DNA of 64,000 nucleotides from Cladocopium goreaui (lineage: Eukaryota > Sar > Dinophyceae > Suessiales > Symbiodiniaceae): positions 89,503 to 153,502 of the forward strand of contig CAMXCT020001421.1 of NCBI GenBank assembly GCA_947184155.2, written 5' to 3'. Positions 1 through 64,000 of the stretch are shown here, one piece after another. The notes beneath the pieces are model-generated. The model did no database searches. It saw only the letters and a list, made by a program, of their open reading frames with translations, and had not been told where the DNA came from. Position 1 is the first letter of the stretch. Every line of letters begins with the position of its first letter. The position numbers were made by a program, and so were the translations under genes.

Positions 1-2
1 TG

Positions 3-2312
3 AAACGTATTTTGAGATGGGCCAACTATGTACTTGTGTTTGAACGAGTGCTCGAACTGTCTGATGTCACTGCAGTACGCCGTCAAAGATGGCTTGCACT
101 TTATGTCCATGCTGATGCACAAACAACCGTTCAGCAGATGCAGCCGTGGCCGAAGATCCCAATGTCGCCCAAGGATTGTGATGCATTGCATGGACTTGAT
201 GACCTAGATGTAAAAGACTTTCAGCCGTCAATCCAAGTTGCCACGAAGTATTTTGCAAATGATTTCCTGCCACCAAGCCGAAAGCATAGCACCAAGGCAG
301 AGGTCATAGCTTTTCGCATTCCCGGCCTGTCCGAAGCTCTTCCCACATTCATGAAGCAATACGGAAATGCACACAACTTGGATGACAATTTGCTCAGAAC
401 CAAAGGGTTGTTTGGAGCTTTTATCAAGCATGGGGACACGTTTCGTTTTTTCACTCCATATGAAATCCTGAAACTCCACTGCCAGTCAGTTCCAGTGACC
501 TTGTTGAAACCAGCCAAGTTGGCATGGGAAACCCTGGGAAATGCGATCATGGTTCCACATGCGATGTACTTGCTGTTTCATGCTTTTCACATGCTCAATT
601 GGATTCCGCAAGAGATGACTTTCAAGAGATGCTTGGAACAGATGATTGCTGAAAGATTCACCACCTCAAATTCAGAAGTTCTAGCGGATGATTTTGCATG
701 GTATGTGGGCACAGATCATGACAATCTTCAGCAACAATTTTCCTTGTTTCGGTTGATCAACGAACTCCAATGGACGAAGGGAGAATCACACTCTGTCTGG
801 CCGACAGGAAAGTTTTTTGACTTTCAACATGGGCTGTGTGAATTTCTCAGAGAAGAACCCATGAACATGAGCACCATTCCACCCACGATGCCTTTCCAAG
901 TTTGTTGTTTGGTTGCATTGGCAGTTCCACCGGGAGAATATGGAGTTCTCAAGATTGATGCAAGTGTAACTTGGCACACTCTGCTCAAGCTGTGGGATAA
1001 CAGATTCATGCCAATGAACGTGTCACTCCGAACAGACCAGATCACCCAGCCAATCATGACCACAATCGATTTTGACAAGATCTTACTTGCGCCGATCCAG
1101 TTTCTTGACTGCCATCCAGTTGTTCCAACTGAGGAGCCTATCCCACGAAAGGTACCGTTTTTGCTCCGGCAAGACTGTGATTTGACGCTGTATGAAATTG
1201 AAGAAAGCACCACTTGGAAGCAAGTCCGAGCCCAATGCAAGCTGCCAGATCAAACCATGTATGACTCGTTTGGCCAGCTCAGTAATGAACAAACCATCAA
1301 GCATCCGACCCTGATAGACTCCAACGAGCATCCGATCACAGTGCAGTCCACCTTCATTGGACTCTTGCACCACCTGACCCAAGCCAAATTCGAAGTTGTG
1401 CAGCCGCCCAATACAGATATTTTGCTGCTGTATGTCACAGGTACTGTTCAGGCGATGGATGCTTTTGCAACCATCTGGCTTTCGGAAGATCAGGTCAACT
1501 GGTGCGCCAAGAACGGTAGACAAATCAATGTACAGTTGCTGGAAACAGGAGCCATGCAAGTGTTGTATCGCCCGAAACTTCCAACCACAGCCACACCAAC
1601 ATCCCTTTTCCGAAACATGTTGTTCATTCACATGATGAAGACAGCCATGTCTGTGTTGCAACAAAAAGAAGGCATTGATTGGATCCTGAAGTATGAACAG
1701 AGAGTCCTTTTCAGAGGAAAATTTGCACCTGACTTATCCATGGGAGTCATCATTCCGATGTTTGAACATTTCTTCCAACTTCGACCTACCAAAGGCACTC
1801 CAGCATTCATCACGATGGCCAAAAGATGCGGTGACCTGTGTACACTTTTTGACTTGCAACAGAGATCCAAAAACCAAAATTTTGTGGTCACCATGATGGG
1901 TAATCCAATGATTGGGGGAACAGGTGCCAAGATGCCAACCACCAAACAGGATCATCACAAAGCAATTGAAGTCGGCATCGCGAACATGTTCTTGGAATAT
2001 GGTATCAATATTACTGCGGTTCCCGATTATACCACAGCACTTTTGCAAACCGCAGGTGAACCACGATTGCACAAGCTTTTGTTTGCAGAAGCACCACCAC
2101 AGAAATATGAAAGCTTTGAAAAGTTGTGCGCAGCTTCTAGACTTGCTTTGCCATCGCATGGTCCTCGATATGCACAGGTCAATGCCAAGTTCAAAAAGCT
2201 CAGATCGAAAGAAAATGACCACAAGACCAAGGACATTGATGTCAGCCAGTTTGCTTTGACACCGCAGTTCTTTCGCAATGCAGATGATTCCCATGCAACA
2301 ATTCTCCAATAA
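3..2312 (+). CDS. C5-cytosine DNA methyltransferase C-terminal half fused to a long unknown region (5' partial)
   Basis: The frame is open to the left edge, so the start lies outside; the first possible in-window start, a TTG at 12, is not meaningful. Numbering from that TTG, three C5-methyltransferase motifs are visible. RRQRW (residues 23-27) fits motif VIII (QxRxR), FFTPYEILKL (146-155) fits motif IX, and LGNAIMVPHA (175-184) fits motif X (GNAVP). The segment between VIII and IX, with LPTFMKQYGNAHNL, would be the target-recognition domain. The AdoMet motif I and the catalytic PC motif IV must lie upstream of the window. Residues about 215-766 match no family I can name. Function inferred: methylation of cytosine, probably in the element's own DNA. 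It ends with TAA 24 nt before the next ATG and in the same phase. Confidence 0.8.
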   Translation, partial: KRILRWANYVLVFERVLELSDVTAVRRQRWLALYVHADAQTTVQQMQPWPKIPMSPKDCDALHGLDDLDVKDFQPSIQVATKYFANDFLPPSRKHSTKAEVIAFRIPGLSEALPTFMKQYGNAHNLDDNLLRTKGLFGAFIKHGDTFRFFTPYEILKLHCQSVPVTLLKPAKLAWETLGNAIMVPHAMYLLFHAFHMLNWIPQEMTFKRCLEQMIAERFTTSNSEVLADDFAWYVGTDHDNLQQQFSLFRLINELQWTKGESHSVWPTGKFFDFQHGLCEFLREEPMNMSTIPPTMPFQVCCLVALAVPPGEYGVLKIDASVTWHTLLKLWDNRFMPMNVSLRTDQITQPIMTTIDFDKILLAPIQFLDCHPVVPTEEPIPRKVPFLLRQDCDLTLYEIEESTTWKQVRAQCKLPDQTMYDSFGQLSNEQTIKHPTLIDSNEHPITVQSTFIGLLHHLTQAKFEVVQPPNTDILLLYVTGTVQAMDAFATIWLSEDQVNWCAKNGRQINVQLLETGAMQVLYRPKLPTTATPTSLFRNMLFIHMMKTAMSVLQQKEGIDWILKYEQRVLFRGKFAPDLSMGVIIPMFEHFFQLRPTKGTPAFITMAKRCGDLCTLFDLQQRSKNQNFVVTMMGNPMIGGTGAKMPTTKQDHHKAIEVGIANMFLEYGINITAVPDYTTALLQTAGEPRLHKLLFAEAPPQKYESFEKLCAASRLALPSHGPRYAQVNAKFKKLRSKENDHKTKDIDVSQFALTPQFFRNADDSHATILQ

Positions 2313-2336
2313 TACACCCCACAATCATCAGGTGTC

Positions 2337-3863
2337 ATGTTGATGTCATCCAAAGAAGCAGAAGCATGGCTGATGGCCACCACTGAGCTGGCACCGGATG
2401 AGCTGGCAATTTACATCGTAGGTCATGCCAAGGTCCCAGATGCATTCAGCCACACCAGAATCCATGCACCGGCACGAGACAGCCAAGGTCGAGAAGTTTT
2501 GCTGAATGGCCTGCTAGTCCAAATGGGATCCAAACATATAGGTACAGCAGGTACTACTGAAAACATCCAGCTCAATGACACGCAAATTTGTTCCATCACA
2601 GTCTGGAGAAACACCATTGAGCCATCACTATGGGAGAGAATCACGGACGCACCAGTCAGAACGGTCAAAGAACTCCTCACCCTAGATGGCCATGCTGGAT
2701 TGATGGGAAAGCCTTGGGGACGCACATTCCAGAAAGATGGAATCACAGTAGATGCGAAAACAGCAACCAGTCTTCAGTTCCACTGTGAGATGACCAAAGG
2801 ACCACGGTTCGAAGCCATGCTCAGACGAAGTGGATTCAATCACATTTTCGTCACCCCCAAGGACTCAGATGGATTGCCATCAAAGCATTGGCGTATCATA
2901 TGGTTACCTTTGACTTCCAAAGAGATTGAATCAAAAACCACGTCCATTTCAGGTACAGCTGGTTTGATCAAAGGTAAGAAAGCCATTGGTCTCCGAGTTG
3001 AAGAAACTGCCTTTTTGCAAGCCTGGCGCAAATCGCGTCCTGAAGATGATCCACCAGACCAACGAATTATGGCTCATGTATTCAAACTTCAACCATTACC
3101 ATTGGGATTGGACCATACCATACTCAAGACTTGGGGTGACTCACAAGGATGGGACATCAAACCAATCAAGCCGATGGGAGCTAAGCAGTGGATTGTAGCT
3201 TCAAACACTTTGCCACCAGCAGTCTTGAGTTTCAATGGAGCTCCCATCCTGTGCCAAAAGATTTTGCAGAAACCACTGGAATCAAATCAAGCCATTGTGG
3301 CTGGACCCAGACCAGCAACTACGAACAAAACTACCACCAATTCAAAACACGTTTATACATCACCACAGATGCAGGTACCCAATCCAAATGAAGATCCATG
3401 GCAACTTTGGATTGCAAATCAGAAATCAAAACAGCCACGATCAGCAGAGGATGCACGACCACCAAATCTGCCGACACCTTATCCAGAGCAGAGATCCTTG
3501 ACAGGTCCATTTGCAGATATGTTTCAGCAACAGGACAGTCGTATCAAGACAGTTGAGACCATGGTTGCGCAGCTCAATGAGTCCCAAACGACTCAAAAAC
3601 ACATGCTGGAAACACAGTTGCAAACCTTGGACACTCGATTGACTCAGCATGTCACGCAGACTCAGGCGGGTTTTGAGCATATCCATCAAGAAAATCACAA
3701 TATGCAAAGAAATATTGCTGACGCACTTGGAAAACAGGAAGAACGAATGGCCAAGTCTTTCGAAGATTTGAAAACCATTTTCCTGCAGAACAGGGGAACC
3801 AAAAGAAAAGATGCGAACCATCCCAACCGGGATGATGAGGAGTTGCATTCTGCATCCGAGTGA
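2337..3863 (+). CDS. LINE ORF1-like protein with C-terminal coiled coil
   Basis: 508 residues from an ATG placed 24 nt after the stop of the methyltransferase frame and in the same phase. I recognise no enzyme motif. The N-terminal two thirds is globular. The region around residues 340-400 is rich in Pro, Gln and Asn. Residues about 400-490 (DSRIKTVETMVAQL onward) form long amphipathic heptads typical of a coiled coil, followed by a basic stretch (NRGTKRKDANH) and an acidic end. Size, position just before the endonuclease and the coiled coil fit the ORF1 proteins of LINEs, which bind the element RNA and multimerise. The call rests on this architecture, not on a sequence match. Confidence 0.6.
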   Translation: MLMSSKEAEAWLMATTELAPDELAIYIVGHAKVPDAFSHTRIHAPARDSQGREVLLNGLLVQMGSKHIGTAGTTENIQLNDTQICSITVWRNTIEPSLWERITDAPVRTVKELLTLDGHAGLMGKPWGRTFQKDGITVDAKTATSLQFHCEMTKGPRFEAMLRRSGFNHIFVTPKDSDGLPSKHWRIIWLPLTSKEIESKTTSISGTAGLIKGKKAIGLRVEETAFLQAWRKSRPEDDPPDQRIMAHVFKLQPLPLGLDHTILKTWGDSQGWDIKPIKPMGAKQWIVASNTLPPAVLSFNGAPILCQKILQKPLESNQAIVAGPRPATTNKTTTNSKHVYTSPQMQVPNPNEDPWQLWIANQKSKQPRSAEDARPPNLPTPYPEQRSLTGPFADMFQQQDSRIKTVETMVAQLNESQTTQKHMLETQLQTLDTRLTQHVTQTQAGFEHIHQENHNMQRNIADALGKQEERMAKSFEDLKTIFLQNRGTKRKDANHPNRDDEELHSASE

Positions 3864-5084
3864 CCTTGTGTGCATTGGGCCACAGAGGGAATTCCAGACA
3901 CTATGTTGCCAGTGTCCTTTGAAGATAAAACATGCTGCCAATCATCGATTTTGCCTTTCCGATGTTCAGCTTTGCAAGACATAATTTGCAACCTCAGTGA
4001 CCCTCCCTCGGATTGCTATTTCCATAATAATGTGGTGGTGTCGTTCGGTATCCACTGGCCACACGTCTTTGACCGCTGTTGTGCTGGGGATAACAAACGC
4101 ACCCACTTTAGTGCTAAGAGCAATCCTGGAGCCAATCCAAAGAGTTCCCATATCCAAAGCCGAAGAGCCACTTGGATTTTTAGAAGAGCTTCCTATAGGT
4201 TGGGACCCATGGTAGCTTGCAGAATTGGAGAGGCCTTGAAACCAGGTCCAAACGATCCATGCACACCAATTAACTTTATCGTAACTAACCCTACAGCTGT
4301 TTTTCAAAAAACTGATCTCTTGAATCAACTTGGTGGGGATGTCATAGCTTTATCCGAAAACTCTGCAACGAAGTTTGTGCAAAACCTTGAGGATTCCAAT
4401 TTCAGAAACTTGGGATACAGAACTGTATGGGGTGTTCCAGCTGCACCGCAACTCCATAAAGGGCCAGAAGACAGCAAGAGAGGCACATCGACTGGAGTGT
4501 CTTTGCATTCGAAATTTCCAATCCGACCATCCAGAACAGCAGAAATCTCCGAGTGGAATACAGCCGGAAGATTTTTGCATGCCTTTTTACGCCTTGCACA
4601 GATCGAGATACAGATTTGTTGCATCTATGGATATCCAGCCAACTTGCAAAACAGCCGCCAAAAAACTAATTCACTTTTACAACATGCCATTGAAACTATT
4701 CGACAGACCACTTTCCCTGCCATCATATGTGGTGATTTGAATCATGCACCTGATGCACTCGAAGCCATGCAGGAGCTCCGAGATCTTGGCTTTGTATCCA
4801 CAAATGAACTTTTTCAATCTCTTTATGGATATCCAATTCCACCCACTTTTGGAATCTCCACTACAAATGATGTTGCGTTAATTTCACCATCACTTTCAAA
4901 AATGATCACCAATGTTTGGGTTGACAACCAACAACTTTTTCCAGGACATCACCCGATGGGATTCACCTTGCAATTGCCAGATACCCCACTTTACACTCAA
5001 ACTTGGAAATTACCTCAATCTTGGTTACCATTTCAACCTGACAATGCCAAAATTGCCTATTTTTTTCAACAACCCTTTGAATGA
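3864..5084 (+). CDS. LINE apurinic-type endonuclease domain
   Basis: This frame directly follows the TGA of the ORF1-like gene in the same phase. The first start-like codon is GTG at 3870 and the first ATG is at 3903. After about 115 residues with several cysteines comes RIGEALKPGP, a linker often seen in dinoflagellate LINEs. Then follows an endonuclease/exonuclease/phosphatase fold: N and E of VIALSENS (metal-binding Glu near residue 163), CIYGYPAN (251-258), GDLN (288-291), NDVALIS (333-339) and GHHP (359-362, in place of the usual SDH). It would nick target DNA to prime reverse transcription. The frame ends at TGA 5082-5084 just after a run of seven T; the RT frame continues in +1 phase from that run. 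Confidence 0.82.
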   Translation, partial: PCVHWATEGIPDTMLPVSFEDKTCCQSSILPFRCSALQDIICNLSDPPSDCYFHNNVVVSFGIHWPHVFDRCCAGDNKRTHFSAKSNPGANPKSSHIQSRRATWIFRRASYRLGPMVACRIGEALKPGPNDPCTPINFIVTNPTAVFQKTDLLNQLGGDVIALSENSATKFVQNLEDSNFRNLGYRTVWGVPAAPQLHKGPEDSKRGTSTGVSLHSKFPIRPSRTAEISEWNTAGRFLHAFLRLAQIEIQICCIYGYPANLQNSRQKTNSLLQHAIETIRQTTFPAIICGDLNHAPDALEAMQELRDLGFVSTNELFQSLYGYPIPPTFGISTTNDVALISPSLSKMITNVWVDNQQLFPGHHPMGFTLQLPDTPLYTQTWKLPQSWLPFQPDNAKIAYFFQQPFE

Positions 5085-8000
5085 ATACACAGATCTACAT
5101 CCATTGCATGCATGGGCCAAACAAACTGAAGATGCTATTGACCGTGCCATAGCGCAGCAGCATACCGAAGATCCAGCGAGATTCCCAACATCTCAACTGC
5201 CGAAAAGATGTAAGGGCCGATGCAAGCCGTTGAAGATCATTCAACAACCACACCCAAGATCAATTAAGACAGCATGCGATGGTCAATTTACGCCTCAAAT
5301 TGACCAGGCTACCATGGCCATCAAGCAGGCAACTAGGCAACTAAGACGTATCCAATCTCTCAAATTAAGATTTGCCAAAATTGCCAAAACACGCCAATGT
5401 ACAGATGATGTAGTTGTTCAGCTGCACTTGGAATGGACAGCCATTCTCCATGCAAAAGGCTTTGAGCGCAGTTTTCAATCATGGATGGAACATTTCCCGG
5501 AACTTTATCCATTGCCACTCACTTTGCCGGATGTTCCGTTCTTAAATGATGTGGAACAACTGTTAAAACATCATGTCGATGCATTGGTTGCCGAACAATC
5601 CCAACGTCAACGCCAGCATGCAAAATTCATGAGACGCCAAGATGTCAACAAATATGGAAAACAACAAGCCTTCCAGGCTATCAGACCAGCAACTCCCGGC
5701 CTGGTTCAAGTAATCAAAATGGAAAAAACAATGCTGGCCACAAGAGCCCAAAATCCAGAATGGGGTTTAGTTCAGTTACATCTCCAAGAAAAATATGAGA
5801 TTGACCTTCGAGCCCCAATCCAAATTTGTGGTCAACCAGCACAGATCATCAATTATGACTTCCCTTTGCTTGAACTCAATCCAGTTGAACCCATCGATGA
5901 ACTGCCACTGAATGTAGTCCTCACCCAAACAATCCATACGGCAGACCCCAAAGAAGTTGCTGATGCTTTGCAAAAACACTGGGACCACTATTGGCAGCGT
6001 GACGATCCGACATCTGATTCGAATGCTAATATATGGGATGACTTTCACACTTTTTGCCGACAAATACCAGATGCACCCATTTTGGACATTGCACAAACTG
6101 ACCTTGCAGTTTGGAAAAATGCAATTAAGTCCCTGAAATCACGTTCAGCAAGAGGCACATGCAGCTGGTTTCCAGATGAAATTAAATCACTCCCAGATGT
6201 TTGTATTCAAAAATTGTCCGAAGTTGTTGCCAATTTTGCTCCAAATGGTTTTCCAAAATGGCTCATGCAAGCAAAAACAATACCACTTGCCAAATGCCAA
6301 GAAGCTGACCACCCGGGGGCTACCCGCCCTATAACGATACTTCCGTTGTTGTATCGTTTGTGGGGGAAAGTTATCACTTCCCAGATACTTCAAGCTTGGA
6401 ACATAAGTTTTCCACAGGCCATAACGGGTTTTCTCCCTGGCCGATCACCCACTAACTTTCAATATGGATTGCAACTGCACCTTGAATCACTTTCGAAGAA
6501 GCTCACTGATCGATATTTGAGTGGCCTGACTCTTGATATCGTCAAAGCTTTTAACTGTTTACCTCGATTTCCCACAAAAATCCTTGTTGAAAAATTTGGT
6601 GTCCCATCGACCTTGACAGAAGCATGGAACCAAAGTATTGAAAATTGCACTCGATGTTGGGCAATTGATGGACAAATATGGCCGCAGACGACAACAAGCA
6701 CAGGCTATCCGGAAGGAGACGCCTGGTCAGTGGTGGCAATGCTGGCAATTAATGCCTATTGGGTTTTCCATGCTCTGCAAGTCACCCCCAAGATTGCAGC
6801 ATTTGCAGATAATTGGAGTTACGGTACCGAAAATCCCCAACATCATGCGGTACTTATTCCTTTGCTGGACCGCCTGACCAAATCAGTACGATTAACAATT
6901 GATTGGTCCAAAACTTGGGGTTGGGCTACCAACGCCCTACACAAAAGTGCCTTAATCACCGCCAAAACCCAGCATTTGCCTGACGAAGTTGAAATTGCCA
7001 TTGTATCAAATGCTCGTGATTTAGGCTATATAATCCACTATAATGCCAAACAATCCAGAGCCACCCAAAAGGAAAGACACGCCAAAGCGTTGACTGCACT
7101 TAAAAAGCTCAGACATGTTGATATCCCTCTTGAAGCCAAAGCGCAGATTGCAACCGCTTCTGCATTTGCTAAAGCCCTGTGGGGTACTTCCTTCTATCTT
7201 TCAGGACAACGTTTCTTTGAAGAATTGCGCGCTGAGTTTGCTCATGCAATTTTTGGCAATTACCACAACATTCAGTCACATGTTGCAGCCATGGCCTTGC
7301 TGAAAAGTGGAATGGACCCAGAATTGTACGTGATACATGCATCCATTCGCACAGCCAGACATTTTCTATGCCATGCCACAGACGATGAGAAAGAAATGTT
7401 TTGGCTTTTGGTCCGTCAGCCACTGCCACATGCAGCCACTATTGCGGGCCCGGCCATGGCCTTTAAGCAGTATATAACGAAACTCAACTGGACCTTGGAG
7501 GAAACGGGAAACATACGTATAACTGCTTTTACAGTATTGAACCTCATTGATAGCAACCTCAATGAAATATTGGATGCTGCCACAGATGCCTGGATGGAAA
7601 TTGTCGTTGAAGTCACTGGTGGCCGAAAGCACATGCGAAATATGCCTCCTATTGATCGTGAAGCCACTATTGCAGCTTTTGCCACGGTCCCTGAAAAATT
7701 TAAGCTCAGCATGGGTCTCGAATCAACGGGAGGGTTTATGCTCAATTCTCAAAAGGCCCATTTTGCAGATCAAGTTGATGGTAAGTGCAATTATTGTGAA
7801 GAGATGGACTCACACAGACACAGAGTTCTCCATTGCAAAGCCACCCAAGAAGCCAGGGTTCAACATTCTTCTATTTGCCAGCAATTGGAAGAAGCTGAAG
7901 ACATGCAACTTGCCTTTCCATTAGCTTATAAATCACCGGAAGACCAGTTTTTGCAAGATATGCTCTATCGCATTCCTGAGCCACACCTTGAGATGCCAAA

Positions 8001-9342
8001 TGCCCCCAAACTAACTTGGGTGTACACAGATGGTTCTTGCTATTTACCCAACAGCCGAAGATATAGATGGTCTGCTTTTGCAATCGTGCGTCCAGCAGTG
8101 CCAATGCAAGCCCTACTGCAGTTGACCCAGACTCAACCTGAGGTTCTGCTCAGGAAAGCATATCATGTAATCGCAGTTTCAATAGTTCCAGGTAAGCAGA
8201 CAATCAATCGAGCAGAACTATTTGCAGCCGTTCTGACGCATGAACAACAAATGAACGCGGTTGTGGTTACTGACAGTGCCTATGTCATCAATATGCATTC
8301 ACTGGTTTGTCAAACGCGTAATGTAATGATTCTGCATAAACTGCCCAACTGGGACTTACTGAGAAGACTTCACCACTTGTATTGGAGATGTGATTACGCA
8401 TTGCCGCACCTCAAGATCAAAGCTCATCAGAATATCACCACTCAAACTGCAGATGAAGTAATCCATATCTTGGGAAATCGCGCAGCTGATGAAGCCGCCA
8501 AACAAGCAGCCAAGCACCAAATGACGATTGTGACAAAGGACTTGCGCAGACTACATGCTGAATCTAGGACAGAACAACAAAACCTTACTGCACAGTATGC
8601 TTTAAGAGTAGATCTGGTTGTTAAACGCACGCGACTGGATAATGAAATTGAAACTACAAAAGCACCTGAAAGACAGATGGAACGCCTGGAGCAGATGCAC
8701 AGCTATATCGTTGAGCACAGCCGTAAGTTTTCTTTCACAGAAGAGGATTTTCACAATGCACGCAGCAGTAAATTTGGGAGACGCACTACGCATTTGCTTT
8801 TACAATGGCTTCAACAACTAGAATGGCCTACATCACCGGAGGAAGTTACACCACCAATTGGGATTACATGGGTTGAGCTGACCGTAAATTTCATGCTTTG
8901 TTCACAATCTTCAGTTCCGGTACAACCTCATCAAGAAGAACAGGGATTTACTATTCGAACCAACACCTTTCGCAATATCATTATGCATGTGCAGTTCCTC
9001 GTCAATAAAGAAATCATTCCTAAGCTTACACCTGTAAAGGTCAAATCATTTTATCAACTGGGGGCAAAGGTGCTGAAACAAGGGCTACCATTGCGTCCAA
9101 AACTTCCACTACAAGATGAAACTTTGGAAATCTTGCAAAAATACTTCAGGGAGCATGGCCAAAATGGTAAGGCCTGCTTCACGGCTATGCCTCACATTCC
9201 GTTAATGGATCCGGTTGTTACAACTGACTTGGATGAGACTTCTGAATTTACTCAGAAAGATCGCCAAAAACTGTACAGAGAACGCAGACAGCAGATGAAG
9301 GACGAGAACACCAATCTGGAACTTGCTGCCGACGACGATTAA
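4912..9342 (+). CDS. LINE reverse transcriptase - CCHC knuckle - RNase H
   Basis: 1476 residues from ATG 4912; the first 50 or so overlap the endonuclease in another frame, so genuine coding probably begins at the T-run near 5060. RT motifs: TRPITILPLLYRLW (about residue 470), LTLDIVKAFNCLPR (near 540, catalytic Asp), GYPEGD (near 598), AFADNW (near 630; the usual DD box is DN). A zinc knuckle of form C-x2-C-x7-H-x4-C (CNYCEEMDSHRHRVLHC, near 960) follows. RNase H follows with TDGSC (near 1039), NRAEL (1099), TDSAY (1120) and GNRAADEAA (1188), all four acidic residues present. The tail after 1280 (KFGRRTTHLLLQWL) is of unknown function. It would reverse transcribe and remove the RNA strand. 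No internal stop over 4.4 kb suggests recent activity or selection. Confidence 0.92.
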   Translation: MFGLTTNNFFQDITRWDSPCNCQIPHFTLKLGNYLNLGYHFNLTMPKLPIFFNNPLNEYTDLHPLHAWAKQTEDAIDRAIAQQHTEDPARFPTSQLPKRCKGRCKPLKIIQQPHPRSIKTACDGQFTPQIDQATMAIKQATRQLRRIQSLKLRFAKIAKTRQCTDDVVVQLHLEWTAILHAKGFERSFQSWMEHFPELYPLPLTLPDVPFLNDVEQLLKHHVDALVAEQSQRQRQHAKFMRRQDVNKYGKQQAFQAIRPATPGLVQVIKMEKTMLATRAQNPEWGLVQLHLQEKYEIDLRAPIQICGQPAQIINYDFPLLELNPVEPIDELPLNVVLTQTIHTADPKEVADALQKHWDHYWQRDDPTSDSNANIWDDFHTFCRQIPDAPILDIAQTDLAVWKNAIKSLKSRSARGTCSWFPDEIKSLPDVCIQKLSEVVANFAPNGFPKWLMQAKTIPLAKCQEADHPGATRPITILPLLYRLWGKVITSQILQAWNISFPQAITGFLPGRSPTNFQYGLQLHLESLSKKLTDRYLSGLTLDIVKAFNCLPRFPTKILVEKFGVPSTLTEAWNQSIENCTRCWAIDGQIWPQTTTSTGYPEGDAWSVVAMLAINAYWVFHALQVTPKIAAFADNWSYGTENPQHHAVLIPLLDRLTKSVRLTIDWSKTWGWATNALHKSALITAKTQHLPDEVEIAIVSNARDLGYIIHYNAKQSRATQKERHAKALTALKKLRHVDIPLEAKAQIATASAFAKALWGTSFYLSGQRFFEELRAEFAHAIFGNYHNIQSHVAAMALLKSGMDPELYVIHASIRTARHFLCHATDDEKEMFWLLVRQPLPHAATIAGPAMAFKQYITKLNWTLEETGNIRITAFTVLNLIDSNLNEILDAATDAWMEIVVEVTGGRKHMRNMPPIDREATIAAFATVPEKFKLSMGLESTGGFMLNSQKAHFADQVDGKCNYCEEMDSHRHRVLHCKATQEARVQHSSICQQLEEAEDMQLAFPLAYKSPEDQFLQDMLYRIPEPHLEMPNAPKLTWVYTDGSCYLPNSRRYRWSAFAIVRPAVPMQALLQLTQTQPEVLLRKAYHVIAVSIVPGKQTINRAELFAAVLTHEQQMNAVVVTDSAYVINMHSLVCQTRNVMILHKLPNWDLLRRLHHLYWRCDYALPHLKIKAHQNITTQTADEVIHILGNRAADEAAKQAAKHQMTIVTKDLRRLHAESRTEQQNLTAQYALRVDLVVKRTRLDNEIETTKAPERQMERLEQMHSYIVEHSRKFSFTEEDFHNARSSKFGRRTTHLLLQWLQQLEWPTSPEEVTPPIGITWVELTVNFMLCSQSSVPVQPHQEEQGFTIRTNTFRNIIMHVQFLVNKEIIPKLTPVKVKSFYQLGAKVLKQGLPLRPKLPLQDETLEILQKYFREHGQNGKACFTAMPHIPLMDPVVTTDLDETSEFTQKDRQKLYRERRQQMKDENTNLELAADDD

Positions 9343-9780
9343 ATCTGTCAAAACGATGGGTATTTTAGCTAGCCAACAAACTGCGATGACCTGTGAACAT
9401 CACAGGGGGAGTGGGATAACCTCCTTAGTAGTACTGGCCTTTATCTGTAGCATTGCTAGGAACCGAGGTGGTGGGTCCATCAAGCCTCTGTTGATCGCCA
9501 GTGTTTAACATCAAGGACTGTGTGGATGGGATTAGAGATGGTTTTAGTTCATGATAGGACCCTTCGCCTGGTCCCTCATTGACTATGGACGCAGTCTTCT
9601 CTTGCAGCTGCGGGGGGAAGGCTGTGGGCGCAAGCATGTGGGCGGATCTTTTCATTCTGGTGGCTTGGTTTAGATGCTTGGGATGTAGCTATATGGAAAA
9701 TCCATCATGCTTAGATCATTTCCTAGGGAAACCGATTGATGTCCATAGCTATGTTACTTTACTGGAGCATATATATAAAT
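9343..9780 (+). other. Probable LINE 3' untranslated region
   Basis: Non-coding sequence after the RT stop. It contains a short hairpin (CCTGTGAACATCACAGG near 9391) and moderate GC content, unlike the AT-rich spacer beyond 9780. I see no poly(A) or target duplication to fix the end. Confidence 0.4.
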
Positions 9781-26489: not shown

Positions 26490-27090
26490 ATGTACATATG
26501 TACGTACGTACGTACGTATACACATACATACATAGATACATACATACATGCATGCATGCATGCATACATACATACATGCATACGTACATACATACATGCA
26601 TGCATGCATACATACATACATACACATACATACATAGATACATACATACATGCATGCATGCATACATACATACATACACATACATGCATGCATGCATCCA
26701 TACATACATACATACACATACATACATACATACTTGCATGCATGCATACATACACATACATACATACATACATACACATACATACACAGATACATACATG
26801 CATGCATGCATACATACATGCATACATACATGCATGCATGCATACATACATACACATACATACATAGATACATACATACATGCATGCATGCATACATACA
26901 TGCATACATGCATGCATACATACATACATACACATACATGCATGCATGCATACATACATACATACACATACATACATACATACATACATACATACATACA
27001 TACTTGCATGCATACATACATACATACACATACATACATACATACATAGATACATACACATACATACATAGATACATACATACATGCATG

Positions 27091-27124
<34 letters not shown>

Positions 27125-27395
27125 TACATATACATATACATATACATGTACATATACATATACATGTACATATACATATACATATACATACATACATAGA
27201 TACATACAAACATATATACATACACATATACACATACATATATACACATACATATATACACATACATATATACACATACATATGACACATACATATACAT
27301 ATACATACACACACACCCCTACCTACCTACCTACCTACCTGCCTGCCTACCTACCTACCTACCTGCACGTACGTATGTGCGTACGTACGTACATC
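26490..27395. repeat. Long ACAT/TGCA microsatellite with compound tail
   Basis: About 800 bp of (ACAT)n with interspersed TGCA units, changing to ACATAT, then CCTACCTA (27318-27362). Hundreds of codons stay open on both strands only because the repeat lacks stops. Confidence 0.95.
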
Positions 27396-40185: not shown

Positions 40186-41159
40186 GTAACATGGGGTAAC
40201 CCAAAATCTAAAATGGGGTACCTAAAATGGAAGTTTCCGAAGATCTATGGCCACAAGTAGTCTTAAGATGGTTTAACATGTTTTAAGCAAATTTAACCAA
40301 TAGGTGACTAGGTGGTACAATAGACATCGGGGTACAGTACAAAGCCAACAGACATCGGGGTACAGTAAAAAGCCAACGACAAAAGGGATGTAGTTGGAAA
40401 CATTGGGTATGTATAACTAGCAATATGTGTTTTTTGGGTTGGTATGTTTTTTTAATATGGTGTATCGATGTGTATCGTATGTTCCCTATGCTCCATGGGT
40501 TGGAGATTTATTCAATGCTCCATGGGTTGGTGGGTTGGAGATTTATTCAATCCCTCCCAGAACTGGTTGAAAAGAAAATCTACCGAAGGCACAAAGAAAT
40601 GGAGTGAATAAAACACGGCTTCATATCAAAACAATTTGGGTATGGGTCAATACCTATTAATACCATTTTTAGGGGAATGACCATCCATTTACCAACTATT
40701 TTGATGTTCACCAGGGGGATAGGGTTTTGACCCATCCCCATTTCTGGAATCCTAGATGTTTGGCGAAACATCCCAAAGCTGAACGAGTTGCGCTGCCTCT
40801 TTATACTTTATCATCTCAATCATTTCAATTGGTCGTCTTCCATACCAGCGCTCAAAGAAATCCCATCTCATCATTGTCCCACAGAGCTCATCCCCTTTCT
40901 GTCATAAGCTTAGGAAATAGGGAATCCAAAATGTTGCCCTCAGTTCCCGGGAAACATTGGATGGGTAGTGAGTTTATTACTTCCTTTTGTTCGCAATAAA
41001 TGGGAATAATGTAGGTTCCTGATTAGTGTGATGTTTTTTAATTGGGTTTTAATAAGGCATCATATATTTTGGTAAATTGAGCATTTCTGAGAATTCTAAA
41101 TAAAAGAAACTAATTGAGAAAATAAAAGAAACAAACTTTAGCAAAGGAAAATGTAAAGG

Positions 41160-42900
41160 GAATGTAAAAAAAACAAAATCACCTCAGGAAGCAGCTGGAC
41201 ACAATAGTGTACCCTCAAACAAACCATACTATTGTGTATCATGATCATATTCATTTCAAGTTACTTTCAATTGATTTCAATTTACTTGCAATTGATTTCA
41301 ATTTACTTTCAAGTAAAAGAAAAAAACAATCACCTCAGGAAGCAGCTGGACACAATAGTGTACCCCCAAACAAACCATACTATTGTGTATCAGGGTTGCT
41401 CATGGACTACCCCCTTGAAAAATTGTTTGAGTGATGTTTTTTAATTGGGTTTTAATAAGGCATCATATATTTTGGGAAATTCAGCATTTCTGAGAATTCT
41501 AAATAAAAGAAACTAATTGAGAAAATAAAAGAAACAAACTTTAGCAAAGGAAAATGTAAAGGGAATGTAAAAAAACAAAATCACCTCAGGAAGCAGCTGG
41601 ACACAATAGTGTACCCTCAAACAAACCATACTATTGTGTATCATGATCATATTCATTTCAAGTTACTTTCAATTGATTTCAATTTACTTGCAATTGATTT
41701 CAATTTACTTTCAAGTAAAAGAAAAAAAACAATCACCTCAGGAAGCAGCTGGACACAATAGTGTACCCTCAAACAAACCATACTATTGTGTATCATGATC
41801 ATTCATGTTTTTTTTGCTTGGCTGAAACTAATCCTTTGGAAAGCCTTTGGTTTTGATTCCAAGAAAAATGAAGCTAAGTAAAAGGAAACAAACTTTAGCA
41901 AAGGAAAAGGAAAAGGAAATGGTTGAAAAAAAAACATAACCTCAGGAAGCAGCTGGACACAATAGTGTACCCCCAAACAAACCAGACTATTGTGTATCAG
42001 GGTTGCTCATGGACTACCCCCTTGAAAAATTGTTTGAGTGATGTTTTTTAATTGGGTTTTAATAAGGCATCATATATTTTGGTAAATTGAGCATTTCTGA
42101 GAATTCTAAATAAAAGAAACTAATTGAGAAAAAAAACTTTAGCAAAGGAAAATGTAAAGGGAATGTAAAAAAAACAAAATCACCTCAGGAAGCAGCTGGA
42201 CACAATAGTGTACCCTCAAACAAACCATACTATTGTGTATCATGATCATTCATGTTTTTTTTGCTTGGCTGAAACTAATCCTTTAGAAAGCCTTTGGTTT
42301 TGATTCCAAGAAAAATGAAGCTAAGTAAAAGGAAACAAATTTTAGCAAAGGAAAATGTAAAGGGAATGTTAAAAAACAAAATCACCTCAGGAAGCAGCTG
42401 GACACAATAGTGTACCCTCAAACAAACCATACTATTGTGTATCATGATCATTCATGTTTTTTTGGTTGGCTGAAACTAATCCTTTGGAAAGCCTTTGGTT
42501 TTGATTCCAAGAAAAATGAAGCTAAGTAAAAGGAAACAAACTTTAGCAAAGGAAAAGGTAAAGGGAATGTTTCAAAAAAAATCACCTCAGGAAGCAGCTG
42601 GACACAATAGTGTACCCTCAAACAAACCATACTATTGTGTATCATGATCATTCATGTTTTTTTTGCTTGGCTGAAACTAATCCTTTGGAAAGCCTTTGGT
42701 TTTGATTCCAAGAAAAATGAAGCTAAGTAAAAGGAAACAAACTTTAGCAAAGGAAAAGGAAAAGGAAATGGTTGAAAAAAACATAACCTCAGGAAGCAGC
42801 TGGACACAATAGTGTACCCTCAAACAAACCACACTATTGTGTATCAGGGTTGCTCATGGACTACCCCCTTGAAAAATTGTTTGAGTGATGTTTTTTAATT
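41160..42900. repeat. Array of a repeat with palindromic core GACACAATAGTGTAC (left block)
   Basis: Nine copies of CCTCAGGAAGCAGCTGGACA, CAATAGTGTACCC..., CATACTATTGTGTATCA at 41186, 41334, 41584, 41737, 41945, 42185, 42389, 42590 and 42792, spaced 150-250 bp. ACACAATAGT and ACTATTGTGT pair, giving a short hairpin in each copy. Between cores are two kinds of spacer (GTGATGTTTTTTAATTGGGT- and TTTGCTTGGCTGAAACTAAT-type). Confidence 0.85.
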
Positions 42901-43014
42901 GGGTTTTAATAAGGCATCATATATTTTGGGAAATTGAGCATTTCTGAGAATTCTAAATAAAAGAAATTAATTGAGAAAATAAAAAAAAAGCTTTAGCAAA
43001 GGAAAATGTAAAGG

Positions 43015-44690
43015 GAATGGAAATCCCATAGAAAGATCATAGAAATAACATGGAAATCCCATAGGAATCTCACAGAAATCCCATAGAAAGATCATAGAAA
43101 TAACATGGAAATCCCATAAGAATCTCACAGAAACCCCATAGAAAGATCATAGAAATAACATGGAAATCCCATAGGAATCTCACAGAAATCCCATAGAAAG
43201 ATCATAGAAATAACATGGAAATCCCATAGAATCTCACAGAAATCCCATAGAAAGATCATAGAAATAACATGGAAATCCCATAGGAATCTCACAGAAATCC
43301 CATAGAAAGATCATAGAAATAACATGGAAATCCCATAGGAATCTCACAGAAATCCCATAGAAAGATCATAGAAATACCATGGAAATCCCATACGAATCTC
43401 ACAGAAATCCCATAGAAAGATCATAGAAATAACATGGAAATCCCATAGGAATCTCACAGAAATCCCATAGAAAGATCATAGAAATAACATGGAAATCCTA
43501 TAAGAATCTCACAGAAATCCCATAGAAAGATCATAGAAATAACATGGAAATCCCATAGGAATCTCTCATAGAAATAACATGGAAATCCCATAGAAAGACC
43601 ATAGAAATAACATGGAAATCCCATAGGAATCTCACAGAAATCATAGAAAGATCATAGAAATAACATGGAAATCCCATAGGAATCTCACAGAAATCCCATA
43701 GAAAGATCATAGAAATAACATGGAAATCCCATAGGAATCTCACAGAAATCCCATAGAAAGATCATAGAAATAACATGGAAATCCCATAGGAACCTCACAG
43801 AAATCCCATAGAAAGATCATAGAAATAACATGGAAACCCCATAGGAATCTCACAGAAATCCCATAGAAAGATCATAGAAAATCTATGGAAATCCCATAGG
43901 AATCTCACAGAATCCCATAGAAAGATCATAGAAATAACATGGAAATCCCATAGGAATCTCACAGAAATCCCATAGAAAGATCATAGAAATAACATGGAAA
44001 TCCCATAGGAATCTCACAGAAATCCCATAGAAAGATCATAGAAATAACATGGAAATCCCATAGGAATCTCACAGAAATCCCATAGAAAGATCATAGAAAT
44101 AACATGGAAATCCCATAGGAATCTCACAGAAATCCCATAAAAAGATCATAGAAATAACATGGAAATCCCATAGGAATCTCACAGAAATACCATAGAAAGA
44201 CCATAGAAATACCATGGAAATCCCATAGGAATCTCACAGAAATCCCATAGAAAGATCATAGAAATAACATGGAAATCCCATAGGAATCTCACAGAAATCC
44301 CATAGAAAGATCATAGAAATAACATGGAAATCCCATAGGAATCTCACAGAAATCCCATAGAAAGATCATAGAAATAACATGGAAATCCCATAGGAATCTC
44401 ACAGAAATCCCATAGAAAGATCATAGAAATAACATGGAAATCCCATAGGAATCTCACAGAAATCCCATAGAAAGATCATAGAAATAACTGAAATAACATG
44501 GAAATCCCATAGGAATCTCACAGAAATCCCATAGAAAGATCATAGAAATAACATGGAAATCCCATAGGAATCTCACAGAAATCCCATAGAAAGATCATAG
44601 AAATAACATGGAAATCCCATAGGAATCTCACAGAAATCCCATAGAAAGATCATAGAAACATCATGGAAATACCTTGGAAAACCCACAGGA
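43015..44690. repeat. 55-bp satellite, about 30 copies
   Basis: The unit begins GAAATCCCATAGAAAGATCA and ends CCCATAGGAATCTCACA. Copies are nearly identical over 1.6 kb and decay towards 44890. The block interrupts the palindromic-core array. Confidence 0.95.
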
Positions 44691-44899
44691 ATCCAATAGA
44701 AATTCCATAGGAAAGATCATAGAAATACCATAAAAATCCCATAGGAATCCAATGGAAATCCCATAAGAATACCATAGAACTCCCATAGCACCCCTTCAGA
44801 AATCCCATAGAAATCCTCCAGAAATATCATAGAAACATCATGGAGACCTCATAGGAATTCCATAGAAATCCAATAGTAATACCATAGAAATACCATAAA

Positions 44900-46110
44900 A
44901 GAAAAAAACTTTAGCAAAGGAAAAGGAAAAGGAAATGGTTGAAAAAAAACATAACCTCAGGAAGCAGCTGGACACAATAGTGTACCCTCCAAACAAACCA
45001 CACTATTGTGTATCAGGGTTGCTCATGGACTACCCCCTTGAAAAATTGTTTGAGTGATGTTTTTTGATTGAGTTTTAATAAGGCATCATATATTTTGGGA
45101 AACTGGGCATTTCTGAGAATTTCAAATGAAAGAAACTAAGAAAGTAATTAAGCAATTAAAAGAAAAAAGACTTTAGCAAAGGAAAAGGTAAAGGAAATGA
45201 TTGAAAAAAAAAAAAAATCATGACCTCAGGAAAGCAGCTGGACACAATAGTGTACCCTCCAAACAAACCACACTATTGTGTATCAGGGTTGCTCATGGAC
45301 TACCCCCTTGAAAAATTGTTTGAGTGATGTTTTTTTAATTGGGTTTTAATAAGGCATCATATATTTTGGGAAACTGGTCATTTCTGAGAATTTCAAATGA
45401 AAGAAACTAAGAAAGGAATTAATTAAAAGGAAAACACTTTAGCTAGCAAAGGAAAAGGTAAAGGAAATGATTGAAAAAATCAAAAAAAACATGACCTCAG
45501 GAAGCAGCTGGACACAATAGTGTACCCTCAAACAAACCACACTATTCTGTATCAGGGTTGCTCATGGACTACCCCCTTGAAAAATTGTTTGAGTGATGTT
45601 TTTTTATTGGGTTTTAATAAGGCATCATATATTTTGGGAAACTGGTCATTTCTGAGAATTTCAAATGAAAGAAGCTAAGAAAGGAATTATTTAAAAGGAA
45701 AACACTTTAGCTAGCAAAGGAAAAGGTAAAGGAAATGATTGAAAAAATCAAAAAATCATGACCTCAGGAAGCAGCTGGACACAATAGTGTACCCTCAAAC
45801 AAACCACACTATTCTGTATCAGGGTTGCTCATGGACTACCCCCTTGAAAAATTGTTTGAGTCATGTTTTTTAATTTTAATTGGGTTTTAATAAGGCATCA
45901 TATATTTTGGGAAATTTGGCATTTCTGGGAATTTCAAATGAAAGAAACTAAGAAAGGAATTAATTAAAAGGAAAACACTTTAGCTAGCAAAGGAAAAGGT
46001 AAAGGAAATGATTGAAAGAATCCAAAAAAAATCACGACCTCAGGAAGCAGCTGGACACAATAGTGTACCCTCCAAACAAACCACACTATTTTGTACCTGG
46101 ATGTAATTTT
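44900..46110. repeat. Array of the palindromic-core repeat (right block)
   Basis: Five further copies near 44960, 45226, 45502, 45765 and 46041, spaced about 270 bp. Related fragments with GGACACAAAACTGTACCC and GGACACAATTCAGTATCCC occur at 46637 and 46694. Confidence 0.85.
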
Positions 46111-46254
46111 CTGTGGAAGGCACCTGGAAAATTTCAATGATGGAAAATAAAAAGTAAAAGGAAAAAGCTTTAAAAAATGAACAAAATGAAAAATGTTTGA
46201 ACAGCAAAAAAAGACCAAGACACAATTGTGTATCCTGACACAATGACACAATTA

Positions 46255-46620
46255 TTATAATTAAACATAAAAAAATAAATTAAAAATTATTATAATTAAA
46301 AATGAAATGAAAATAAAAAATAAATAAATAAAATTAAAATAAATAATAATTAAATTAAAAATTATTATAATTAAAAATAAAAATAAAAATAATTTAAAAT
46401 AAAATAAAAAATAAATAATTTAAAATAAAATAAAAATAAAATTATTATAATTAAAAATAAAAATAAAAAATAATTTTAAATAAAATAAAAAATAATTAAA
46501 TTAAAAATTATTATAAAAATTATTAATTATAATTAAAAATAAAAATAAATAATATTTTAAAATTTTAAAATAAAATAAAAAACAATTAAAAACTAAAAAA
46601 CAAAAAAATGAAAAAAAAAC
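46255..46620. repeat. AAATAAAATT low-complexity tract
   Basis: Almost pure A and T with AAATAAA/AATTATTATAATT motifs. Confidence 0.9.
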
Positions 46621-47045: not shown

Positions 47046-50000
47046 GCAAGTCCGGTTTTTTTTGGGGGGCGCTGGTATTTTCTTTCCTAGGCAAATATGA
47101 ACATCAATGAGATAGAAATTCTACATATGTATATATTACAAATGAATGTATATTATATATTATATATATAGACACATACATACGTGACATGCTTGAAATA
47201 CATGTAAGCATATATATGTAAAGGTAGATATACAGTTTCAATCGGTTTCAAGTATGTATTCCTTTTCAACCATACATAGGATGTTTGGTTGAGATGACGA
47301 GCATGACCGTGTTTTTGGGATGGGTTGTTCTCACCTGTGCCTTGGTACCCGCCACCAGAGCTTGGGACTAGTGTGGATGCAGCCCTTCAGACGTTGGATA
47401 TGCCAATTTTAGAAAGGGGATGGTCAATCCACGTTCATAGGGATTACCCTTTGGAAAAAAGGAAAACACATGGAAAAAACTTGTTTTTTTCTTACGAAGA
47501 CTTTACAATCCACACATGAGAACCGCTGTTTATGCCATTTTCACGAGGCATGAAGATGATGGGAAAGCGTCAGGACACTCAGCACTCAGCTTCACTTTCT
47601 GGTGGATGCCCTGCCTGCGCCAGTGACGGCTGAGGAAAATGCTGGATTTATTGGTGACTTACTGCAATGGTGATTTAATGGATTCTTTATTTAATGGTGC
47701 TTTAAGTGAATTTAAGGGTGACTTAAGTGGATTTAATATGATTTAATGGGATTTAACGGTACATCATCGGATTTTGTGGTGATTTTTGTAATTCAGTGTG
47801 ATACTTGACTGCTACACTCTAACAATCCGACACTTTTATATCATATTTGGGTGTGTCTGCACATGTGGATAATGTTTCTGCATAGCAATTTGAATGGGAA
47901 ATGATGTGATGTTCTAAACCATCAAATTCAAATGTAGGACACAGAAACCAATATCTATATATACTGGGGATTGGTCTAAGACTCGAGGGACCACAGGTTC
48001 GAATGTCTATGTTTAGTATTAACCAATATTAACCATCAATTTTCAGGGGTACCCGGGTGAAGGCCAACAGACGGTAGGTCAGGTTCAAACCACTCAGCAC
48101 AGCAAGTTTCTATGGCGAGGCGCCAAATGCCTGAGTAAAGGATGCTACCAACTACCTAGAGGGCTTCATGAGCTGCGGGAGATGCGTTGTCACCTCAACA
48201 GCTCACATTCAATCACTTGCATGGCCCCCATTTCTGAAGAACCTCTTGTTCTTCAGATGTTTCTTTTACACTTAAAAAGTAAAGAACTACGTCCAAAAAG
48301 TTGAAGCCCTTGTGGGCAGGGTTTTCCCTGCTTTCTTCTAAAACCACAGAGACCTATCAAACATTGGCATTAGTGACTTCCGAATCTTTTGGATTCCCCG
48401 CAGCCTTTTCAATGTCTAACAAGTCTCTTTTCTGCTGTTTGAGTTTCTTTCCCGAGAACATCTCGGGATCTTCAACCACACGCCACACCTGGCGACATGC
48501 CACGTAGCGCTGCATCTGGTGATCCTCTCCTCTCTTGGTCAGGCTATTTGCAAGCATGGCCTCTGAGTTCACCCATCGAACTTGCAGCTGTGTGTACATC
48601 TCTGACTCCTTCACAGCTAGTAGCTCAATGTCAATCCTCTTCGACTCTCCGGTGGGTGAGATGTAGGGTCTCTGCAATTTGTCATAGACACTGCGGCTAT
48701 CAGTGATGAGGGTGCCCTTCACCTTGGCCACCATGGCATCGGGGTCTCGCAAACACGGTGAGTACCCTAACAGTTCGGCCCACTGATATCGAATGAGGTA
48801 CAGGATGTCCTCAGCATCCACTATAGCTCGAGCCTCTGCAGCCCCTGGGGCTCGGCAAACTCTGGTGATTTTTGAACTCTGCCAAAACATCGGAGAAACC
48901 TGTGCCACCTCGCCTTCATTCAATTTCTTGGAAGCAGCCCCAACAAAAATTCCTTTGGTGGAATAACCCCCTTGACGATTTTGTGAAGAAGCATCTGACC
49001 AAGCAAACATTTCAACTTCATCAAGAGGAATTGGGTGGATCCTAAGAGGTTCATGAGAAGCGCCTTTCATTTTGTACAACAAAGAATTGGCTTGAAGAAC
49101 ATGTTCAACCGTAGAAATAGGGACTTCCGACAAAGACAAAGAAACATAGGCAGAAAAACGGAAACCAACTTGACTACAATGCCATGACATGGCCCCCAAA
49201 ATTCCCCGAAGGAGGGTTTTTTCATGTTCCGTGGTAGGACTCTTCCTATCACGCCGTCTCTCCTGCGACATGGGAATTTCTTTCACATGTTCCATGTACC
49301 TTTCTTGAGAAAGGTGAAAACCGCCATCATCCTGTCGTGCAATCTGAACTCCACACTGAGTAAACCTGTTTTCTTCAAACTCTCCCCAACGGAAATGATT
49401 TTGAATCTCCCTCTTAGATTCCAACCAAATGGGGTCTTGGGGATCAGCCACAAACATAAAATCATCCACATGACCAGAAATAACCGCATGAACTTTCCCT
49501 TTTTGTTTCAAAACCCAAGCACAAGGATCAGAACCCAACTGAGTATATCCAATAGACAACAGGTATTCCTTCACAGTTTCATACCATTCATAAGGAGCTT
49601 GAACCAAACCGTAACACGTTTTTCTCAACTTGGCAACACTTTCTTTGGGGATTTGCAACAGTTCACACAATTCAGGGGTAGGGATACAAAACAGATCCTC
49701 TTTACACTCACGACCCTGCAAAAACGCAGCGGCAACATCTCCCTTCCATGCCCACCAGCCCTGGCTGGCCGCAAACTGCAGCATTGTTTGCCTGGTATGC
49801 CGCGTGGTGGTTGGTGCATACGTAACCCTATGTTCATATGCCGGGTCTTGGTAACCCAAAATCACTATTCGTGCCTTTGGGACGGTTTTTCCGTCCCCAT
49901 CTACCTTCCAGGTGAGCAGCCATCGCATTTGCATGGCTTGTTGCCTGGAGGGTTGCAAATGAGGTGGTAAGGCTTCAATAGCCTCGGACTTCAAAAACTT

Positions 50001-62799: not shown

Positions 62800-63294
62800 G
62801 TGCCAGTCTCAGCTGGATTTAACTACCAGAGATAGGATGCAATGGCTATATATTTGCATCGTATGATACATGATTCATATGATGTAATGCATGTATACAT
62901 GTATATGTGTATATATGTATATATGTATATATATATATATATATGGTCCCGTCCTCCGTCTCTCCACCCCCCCCCCATGGGTTGGGTCCCCAGGTAGTAG
63001 CCCCAATTCCCTTCTATTTGCAAGCTATTGGCAGCATTTCTGAGGTCCAGCTTCGTATTTGCTAGGTCTTTGCAGCATTTCTGACTACCAGCCTCGCATT
63101 TACTAGGTACATGCTACCTTTTAGGCGACCTACGTAGCACACATACTCCTTCAAAGTACCTACGTGCTACCTAGAGTCATACTATTATGTGCTATGTATC
63201 TACTGTATCTACTTCTGTGACTACCTGTGTACTCTGACAACAGACGACCCTCTGTGAACATATAACCGTCCTACCATACATGCAAGAATGCCAT

Positions 63295-63650
63295 ACAATA
63301 CATACATACCATACAATACATACATACCATACAATACATACATACCATACAATACATACATACCATACATACCATACATACCATACATACCATACATACC
63401 ATACATACCATACATACCATACATACCATCCATACCATCCATACCATACATACCATCCATACCATCCATACCATCCATACCATACATACCATCCATACCA
63501 TCCATACCATCCATACCATCCATACCTACATACCATACCTACCATACCATACCTACCATACCATACCTACCATACCATACCTACCATACCATACCTACCA
63601 TACCATACCTACCATACCATACCTACCATACCATATACCCACCATACCAT
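63295..63650. repeat. CATAC(C)-type tandem repeat
   Basis: ACATACCATACAATACAT then ACCATACAT, ACCATCCAT and ACCATACCT units. Confidence 0.95.
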
Positions 63651-64000
63651 ACCACACCCCCACCACACCACAGGGGGGGGAGGGGGACAGTGCCACACCC
63701 CCACCACACCACAGGTGGGGGGAGGGGGAAGATCTCATATGGGACCAGTATATGGGACCCATCCACCACACCACAGGGGGGGGAAGGGGGACAGTGCCAC
63801 ACCCCCACCACACCACAAGGAGGGGAGGGGGAAGATCTCATATGGGACCAGTATATGGGACCCATCCACCACACCACAGGGGGGGGAGTGGGACAGTGCC
63901 ACACCCCCACCACACCACAGGGGGGGAAGGGGAAGATCTCATATGGGACCAGTATATGGGACCCATCCCATATGGGGGGGGGAGGGGGGGGGTGGCAGGG
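63650..64000. repeat. G-rich minisatellite of about 102 bp, 3.4 copies, running off the edge
   Basis: Units share AAGATCTCATATGGGACCAG, TATATGGGACCCATCC, CACCACACCACAGGGGGG and ACAGTGCCACACCCCCACC, starting near 63729, 63832 and 63933. Confidence 0.9.

Follow-up and report, generated by a model that had tools for sequence, protein, structure and literature searches.

LINEs that carry a DNA methyltransferase (DNMT) were reported in 2018: in SymbioLINE-Dnmt the DNMT lies in an ORF upstream of a second ORF with the composition Exo_endo_phos-RVT_1-RNase_H, and the elements are described as having target-site duplications, no poly-A tail, CG depletion and DNMTs that make up an orphan Symbiodinium clade (de Mendoza et al., 2018; PMC5890265). 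The main text of that paper contains none of the terms "ubiquitin", "readthrough", "in-frame", "UGA", "spliced leader" or "target site". Two consecutive ORFs parted by a UGA, the arrangement with which we are concerned here, are found in Tca2 of Candida albicans, which differs from the present element in being an LTR retrotransposon and in having a potential pseudoknot 3′ of the UGA, where none is evident in our case (PMC2194720). Literature on readthrough in LINEs or in dinoflagellates, in a search that reached few subscription papers, yielded cases from LTR elements, of reinitiation and of code reassignment and, among the titles, abstract openings and passages covered, no LINE case, and a join of ORF1 and ORF2 through TGA readthrough in such LINEs is apparently undescribed.

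The DNA analyzed here is a stretch of 64,000 nucleotides from the genome of Cladocopium goreaui (C1421:89503-153502, referred to as the window), and relatives were sought in the same 1.17-Gb assembly. The start of the window lies inside a young but damaged dinoflagellate LINE that bears a DNA methyltransferase. Judged by architecture and not by sequence comparison, this LINE is of the published SymbioLINE-Dnmt kind and fits each structural point tested: a DNMT (PF00145) ORF stands ahead of an endonuclease-RT-RNase H ORF, there are target-site duplications and no poly-A tail, key DNMT residues are kept, and many diverged families occur along with young copies (PMC5890265). It departs from the published account in the relation between the two ORFs, which PMC5890265 presents as separate. 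Our reading, which we hold to be probable, is that the window contains a recent, defective SymbioLINE-Dnmt copy, that ORF1 and ORF2 of the element are joined by programmed readthrough of a UGA, and that its insertion is site-specific.

The LINE, its copies and its surroundings

The element takes up window positions 1-9643 on the forward strand, corresponding to the 3′ ~91% of its length; its 5′ start lies ~911 bases upstream of the window, at C1421:88591, and its 3′ end at window position 9643. Over 10.55 kb it matches three further full-length copies in the C. goreaui genome with 99.5-99.7% DNA identity, and the 5′ end is found four times in the genome when up to three mismatches are allowed. 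Four partial copies exist besides, with a reverse transcriptase identity of 98-100%; two of these are plainly 5′-truncated and one runs off its contig. The protein encoded at 3-2309 finds at least 70 matched places in the assembly, several of which are parts of a single element. Four of the matched places are near-identical and the remainder are 22-42% identical, with open frames of ~1,500-1,600 codons around many of the latter.

Between 3 and 5081, only two stops interrupt frame 3 of the window, a TAA at 2310 and a TGA at 3861, and the frames 3-2309 (769 aa), 2337-3863 and 3864-5084 all share one phase, as a reading of this DNA made from the sequence only had already noticed. ORF2 opens with the start motif RIGEALKPGP and an APE-type endonuclease (4221-5084, forward strand; PF03372, E 1.4e-6) and continues in frame 1 with reverse transcriptase and RNase H (4912-9342, forward strand), both matched in Pfam (PF00078, E 2.3e-9, and PF00075, E 3.6e-10, respectively); a 3′ UTR (9343-9643, forward strand) that ends in GTGGGC, without a poly-A tail, completes the element. 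The private frameshift within ORF2 lies in a T run (5060-5066, forward strand) that counts 7 T, as against 6 T in the three further full-length copies, and could be an assembly error. ORF1 is split by an in-frame TAA (2310-2312, forward strand) that is likewise private to the window copy, the frame being open there in the three further full-length copies, and is also broken near its start, where the frame is open only from C1421:88725. Owing to these three lesions the window copy as assembled cannot encode full proteins; better-preserved relatives of it are present in the genome.

The observed/expected ratio of CG is 0.544 in the window LINE versus 0.551-0.556 in three stretches elsewhere in the window, and 0.525-0.533 in the three further full-length copies versus 0.552-0.683 in their flanks; four diverged families of the LINE have values of 0.47-0.51. 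These ratios do not amount to a clear CG depletion. Scans of viral contigs with two window proteins found no relative.

Elsewhere the window holds a Copia-like retrotransposon on the reverse strand (48357-55662; RVT_2, E 1.6e-22; CCHC zinc knuckle, E 7.8e-7) and a long minisatellite cluster (41028-46616) with units of ~403, 201, 55 and 270 bases. TACA-type and TACCATACA / ~103-base repeats, which give open frames in several frames, lie at 26493-27313 and 63272-63970.

ORF1 and its methyltransferase

The sequence-only reading had proposed a LINE with a C5-cytosine methyltransferase on the basis of three motif-like stretches, VRRQRW (75-92), FRFFTPYE (441-464) and LGNAIMVPH (534-560), which do occur in this order and which we take to be motifs VIII, IX and X of a C5-methyltransferase. 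The C-terminal half of the domain is accordingly placed at 3-600 on the forward strand. Extension in the 5′ direction by way of the near-identical copies showed that the same frame holds FAGGFGGW (motif I) and SSPCQSW (motif IV). Motif VI, which reads ENV in most C5-methyltransferases, reads IEQV in these copies, again upstream of the window. All five full ORF1s tested, which come from different families, match PF00145 (E 2e-8 to 2e-18), and in an alignment of seven families the catalytic Pro-Cys, the Glu of motif VI, the Arg-x-Arg of motif VIII and the Gly-Asn of motif X are invariant. With motifs I and IV in place upstream, and with the join of the methyltransferase to the endonuclease and reverse transcriptase recurring in further genomic copies, the proposal of a methyltransferase-bearing LINE stands.

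The window fragment by itself is less telling: it has no methyltransferase match in Pfam, NCBIfam, PHROGs or PDB, and tblastn with this fragment returned eight phage and two plasmid records, none of them annotated as a methyltransferase. Taken alone, this would agree with a chance resemblance in an otherwise ordinary LINE. Such a resemblance is refuted by the PF00145 matches in five of five full ORF1s and by catalytic residues that are invariant across seven families, and we regard its probability as negligible.

In one relative (C6095; L066:750-6971) the methyltransferase contains ~550 extra residues between motifs VIII and IX, which is where the target-recognition part of C5-methyltransferases lies. 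This insert is partly repetitive and rich in HPKHP, and the open frame counts 2,087 codons.

In the further copies a methionine ~50 bases after the start of the LINE opens an ORF1 that continues without a break to the TGA. This ORF1 is a single frame of ~1,574 aa, made up of the C5-methyltransferase, a middle region, a conserved C-terminal domain and a coiled-coil-like end, and several details of the initial reading change with this. The ~550 residues behind the methyltransferase (601-2309, forward strand), seen initially as an extra domain of the window copy, can also be aligned with the ORF1s of six further families (ORF1 identity 23-36%), with 19 invariant columns in the seven families, and represent the middle region of ORF1. 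The frame at 2337-3863, which had been given as a LINE ORF1 in its own right, forms the final third of this same ORF1, split off by the private TAA; a separate third ORF at this place was rejected because three further full-length copies are without the TAA at 2310. For the suggestion that the middle region binds RNA or DNA we found no evidence, the sole lead being a ubiquitin-like domain, and the C-terminal domain and the coiled-coil-like stretch would be better candidates for an RNA-binding role.

The middle region is less conserved than the methyltransferase and the C-terminal domain, and Pfam finds no family in the first 769 residues of the window. Profile comparisons suggest that the middle region probably holds a ubiquitin-like domain ending in Gly-Gly (~1671-1919, forward strand), with statistics that are weak. 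A profile of the middle region from seven families, when compared with the PDB, gave 24 rows, all of them ubiquitins or fusions with ubiquitin (best E 0.031), and a profile of 26 sequences gave 67 PDB sequences at E up to 10 (best E 0.0026), with 58 of the best 60 of these 67 named ubiquitin, NEDD8 or ubiquitin-fusion. Within ubiquitin, the matched part is the second half, up to and including its GG; the GG of the LINE is invariant in 26 of 26 aligned sequences, one per family. Direct comparison with ubiquitin in hhalign resulted in a score of 27.3 at a weak probability of 44%; the highest score among 60 shuffled ubiquitins was 15.0. Pfam detects no ubiquitin family in the 26 members, and a single-sequence AlphaFold model of 600-2309 has a mean pLDDT of 35, which is too low for use.

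The C-terminal third of ORF1 (2313-3860, forward strand) consists of the conserved domain, a stretch that by eye resembles a coiled coil from ~3522 onward, and a tail that is first basic and then acidic. A PDB profile search with the C-terminal domain gave one match, at chance level (E 0.41).

The junction between ORF1 and ORF2

In the window copy, ORF1 is separated from an ORF2 in the same frame by a TGA with C as the next base (3861-3863, forward strand), the proposed readthrough site, and from there a stop-free spacer of 119 codons (3864-4220, forward strand) leads up to the endonuclease start motif. To place this junction among its relatives, 51 junction pieces were inspected, two of which (C2813 and C491, 50350-52950) are without a recognizable ORF1 tail and are not counted. 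The other 49 junctions comprise 11 first copies; 20 further pieces, of which 18 were kept for having a frame with exactly one stop and two, C2560 (which failed this rule) and C67 (dropped by name), were included after reading by hand; 12 pieces chosen by ORF1 coordinates with the frame disregarded; and the six usable among eight pieces upstream of RT matches. Alignment A4 is without C2480, whose piece has no open frame, and without C67. Clustering at 70% identity placed 41 junctions in 26 families, and the eight further copies were counted apart.

TGA is the stop of ORF1 in every one of the 49 copies that have a recognizable ORF1 tail. UGA-C is a leaky stop context, and the base after the TGA is C in 22 of the 26 families (A in three, T in one) and in six of the eight further copies (A in two); for the families this corresponds to a binomial P of ~5e-11 at 23% C, a value that is too small because the families are related. 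By a recount under a single rule, the frame stays open past the TGA in 43 of the 49 copies, 38 of which reach a clear endonuclease start motif, the other five being open to the end of the fetched piece (263-569 codons). The spacer is variable in sequence and has 80-238 codons in 37 of the 38 copies with a clear motif; that of C986 has 484 codons, and a nearer motif may have diverged there. In the spacers of 17 families, measured to the motif or over 100 codons if no motif was seen, and taken in part from pieces that had been selected for a single stop, one in-frame stop is present in 2,452 codons versus 108 and 157 in the two alternative frames. Between the TGA and the first in-frame ATG, which lies up to 122 codons past the TGA, the 17 families have no stop in 558 codons (chance ~1e-12, again too small a value for related families). 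Among the pieces unselected for frame, 11 of 12 and five of the six usable ones (of eight) are in phase. An estimate of dN/dS in the spacer was biased by the alignment and was not used.

Six of the 49 copies depart from this pattern. The endonuclease motif is out of frame in C1791, C5359 and C2560, which have in-frame stops after 26, 37 and 116 codons, respectively; in C67 another stop follows two codons after the TGA, C2725 has one stop within an otherwise in-phase spacer, and in C3458, where no motif was seen, the frame stays open for 245 codons. Each of the six looks like the result of a single lesion. In L091 and L097 (C3378, C4657) the spacer contains an in-frame tandem duplication of ~58 codons that includes the endonuclease start motif.

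ORF2 of SART1 and of L1 encodes an endonuclease and a reverse transcriptase. Both elements resemble the present LINE in having two ORFs, but the route to ORF2 is termination-reinitiation, which is described in the case of SART1 and a proposal in that of L1 (PMC5972666), as against the in-frame readthrough proposed here. A separate translation of ORF2 could also be considered for our element, either by such reinitiation or from an mRNA that received the spliced leader between the ORFs, with the common frame left as a relic of an ancestral single ORF; trans-splicing of mRNAs does take place in dinoflagellates (PMC6050394), the transcription of SymbioLINE-Dnmt is reported to be biased to ORF2 and the 3′ UTR (PMC5890265), and the three copies with the endonuclease motif in another frame point the same way. 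However, neither route requires a stop-free stretch ahead of the first ATG, a UGA in preference to UAA or UAG, or a C after the stop, and the stop-free stretch, the UGA and the following C are kept in most of the 26 diverged families. A spacer without stops before the first ATG is explained by readthrough and not by independent initiation of ORF2, and we therefore consider separate translation unlikely.

The host might alternatively decode UGA as an amino acid, through a reassigned code or as selenocysteine, in which case ORF1-ORF2 would constitute one ORF. While UGA is indeed the sole stop used at the junction, and a reassignment of all stops has been reported in the syndinean Amoebophrya (PMC6394959), the frames of ~1,500-2,000 codons on either side of the junction are without TGA, and a search for SECIS elements in one full copy plus flanking sequence gave eight weak matches, none of which is a SECIS. 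We rate this explanation as highly improbable.

From the sequences of the junctions we infer a programmed UGA readthrough between ORF1 and ORF2. A stimulatory RNA structure downstream of the stop is common, but not universal, in programmed readthrough; 3′ of the TGA no consistent structure was found (mean z -0.26 against mononucleotide shuffles in 26 families). With readthrough, most ribosomes would halt at the UGA and yield the ORF1 protein, and the few that pass it would produce an ORF1-ORF2 fusion of ~3,300 aa, which would bring the methyltransferase to the complex that performs reverse transcription. The LINE would insert through target-primed reverse transcription at one fixed site of an abundant host repeat, and the methyltransferase may mark the new LINE copy or its RNA. 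We also raise, as a speculative and rather doubtful extension, that these elements might form a LINE superfamily in which programmed UGA readthrough fuses the methyltransferase to the endonuclease-reverse transcriptase and gives every particle a constant minor fraction that methylates the copy during its synthesis, and that the GG of the ubiquitin-like domain might be a cut site for a host deubiquitinase, freeing the methyltransferase.

Target site, spliced leader and role of the methyltransferase

Exact target-site duplications of 14-16 bases are present in three of the four full-length copies, at GGAAATCATCCCCAAATGGCC or a near match to it, and share ~3 bases with the 3′ end of the LINE; an A tail is present in none of the four. 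The window copy is the exception, with no duplication of at least 8 bases in its flanks, and its 3′ flank by eye resembles a diverged target motif. In the four partial copies the 3′ flanks start with CGAAC and resemble the duplications, so that, taking the duplications and the matching 3′ junctions together, seven of eight copies have a target site in common. With up to one mismatch allowed, the target motif is found at 2,219 + 2,324 = 4,543 places in the genome, versus 0 for a control. The window has a single near match to this motif, at 60706-60726. Among papers judged by title, none on site-specific LINEs of dinoflagellates was found.

At the 5′ end of the window copy, the exact 21-base dinoflagellate spliced leader, CCGTAGCCATTTTGGCTCAAG, as printed in PMC6050394, lies at C1421:88572-88592, joined to the first bases of the LINE. 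A 30-base pattern across this join occurs once in the genome, and the leader is therefore present in one of the four full-length copies. The simplest reading is that a trans-spliced LINE RNA was copied into DNA, whereby the source RNA of the window copy would have received the spliced leader and then been reverse-transcribed. Retrogenes tagged with DinoSL similarly have the leader fixed at the 5′ end of the retrocopy, but these are host genes, whereas the window copy is the LINE itself (PMC6050394, PMC12014239). According to PMC6050394 the type of element that mediates retroposition is unknown, with LTR elements favored. The presence of the leader at this copy suggests that trans-spliced RNA can become fixed through LINE-type machinery, and it bears on what makes the retrogenes of dinoflagellates.

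When one SymbioLINE DNMT domain was assayed in yeast, it produced no DNA methylation, an outcome that the authors of the assay call inconclusive (PMC5890265). Readthrough of the UGA, if true, would be an expression strategy for a LINE that was not found in the literature searched. As for the part played by the methyltransferase in retrotransposition, were ORF1 and ORF2 made as one polyprotein by readthrough, the enzyme would reach the new cDNA in cis, and an assay of its catalytic domain in isolation would have lacked the partner of that domain.
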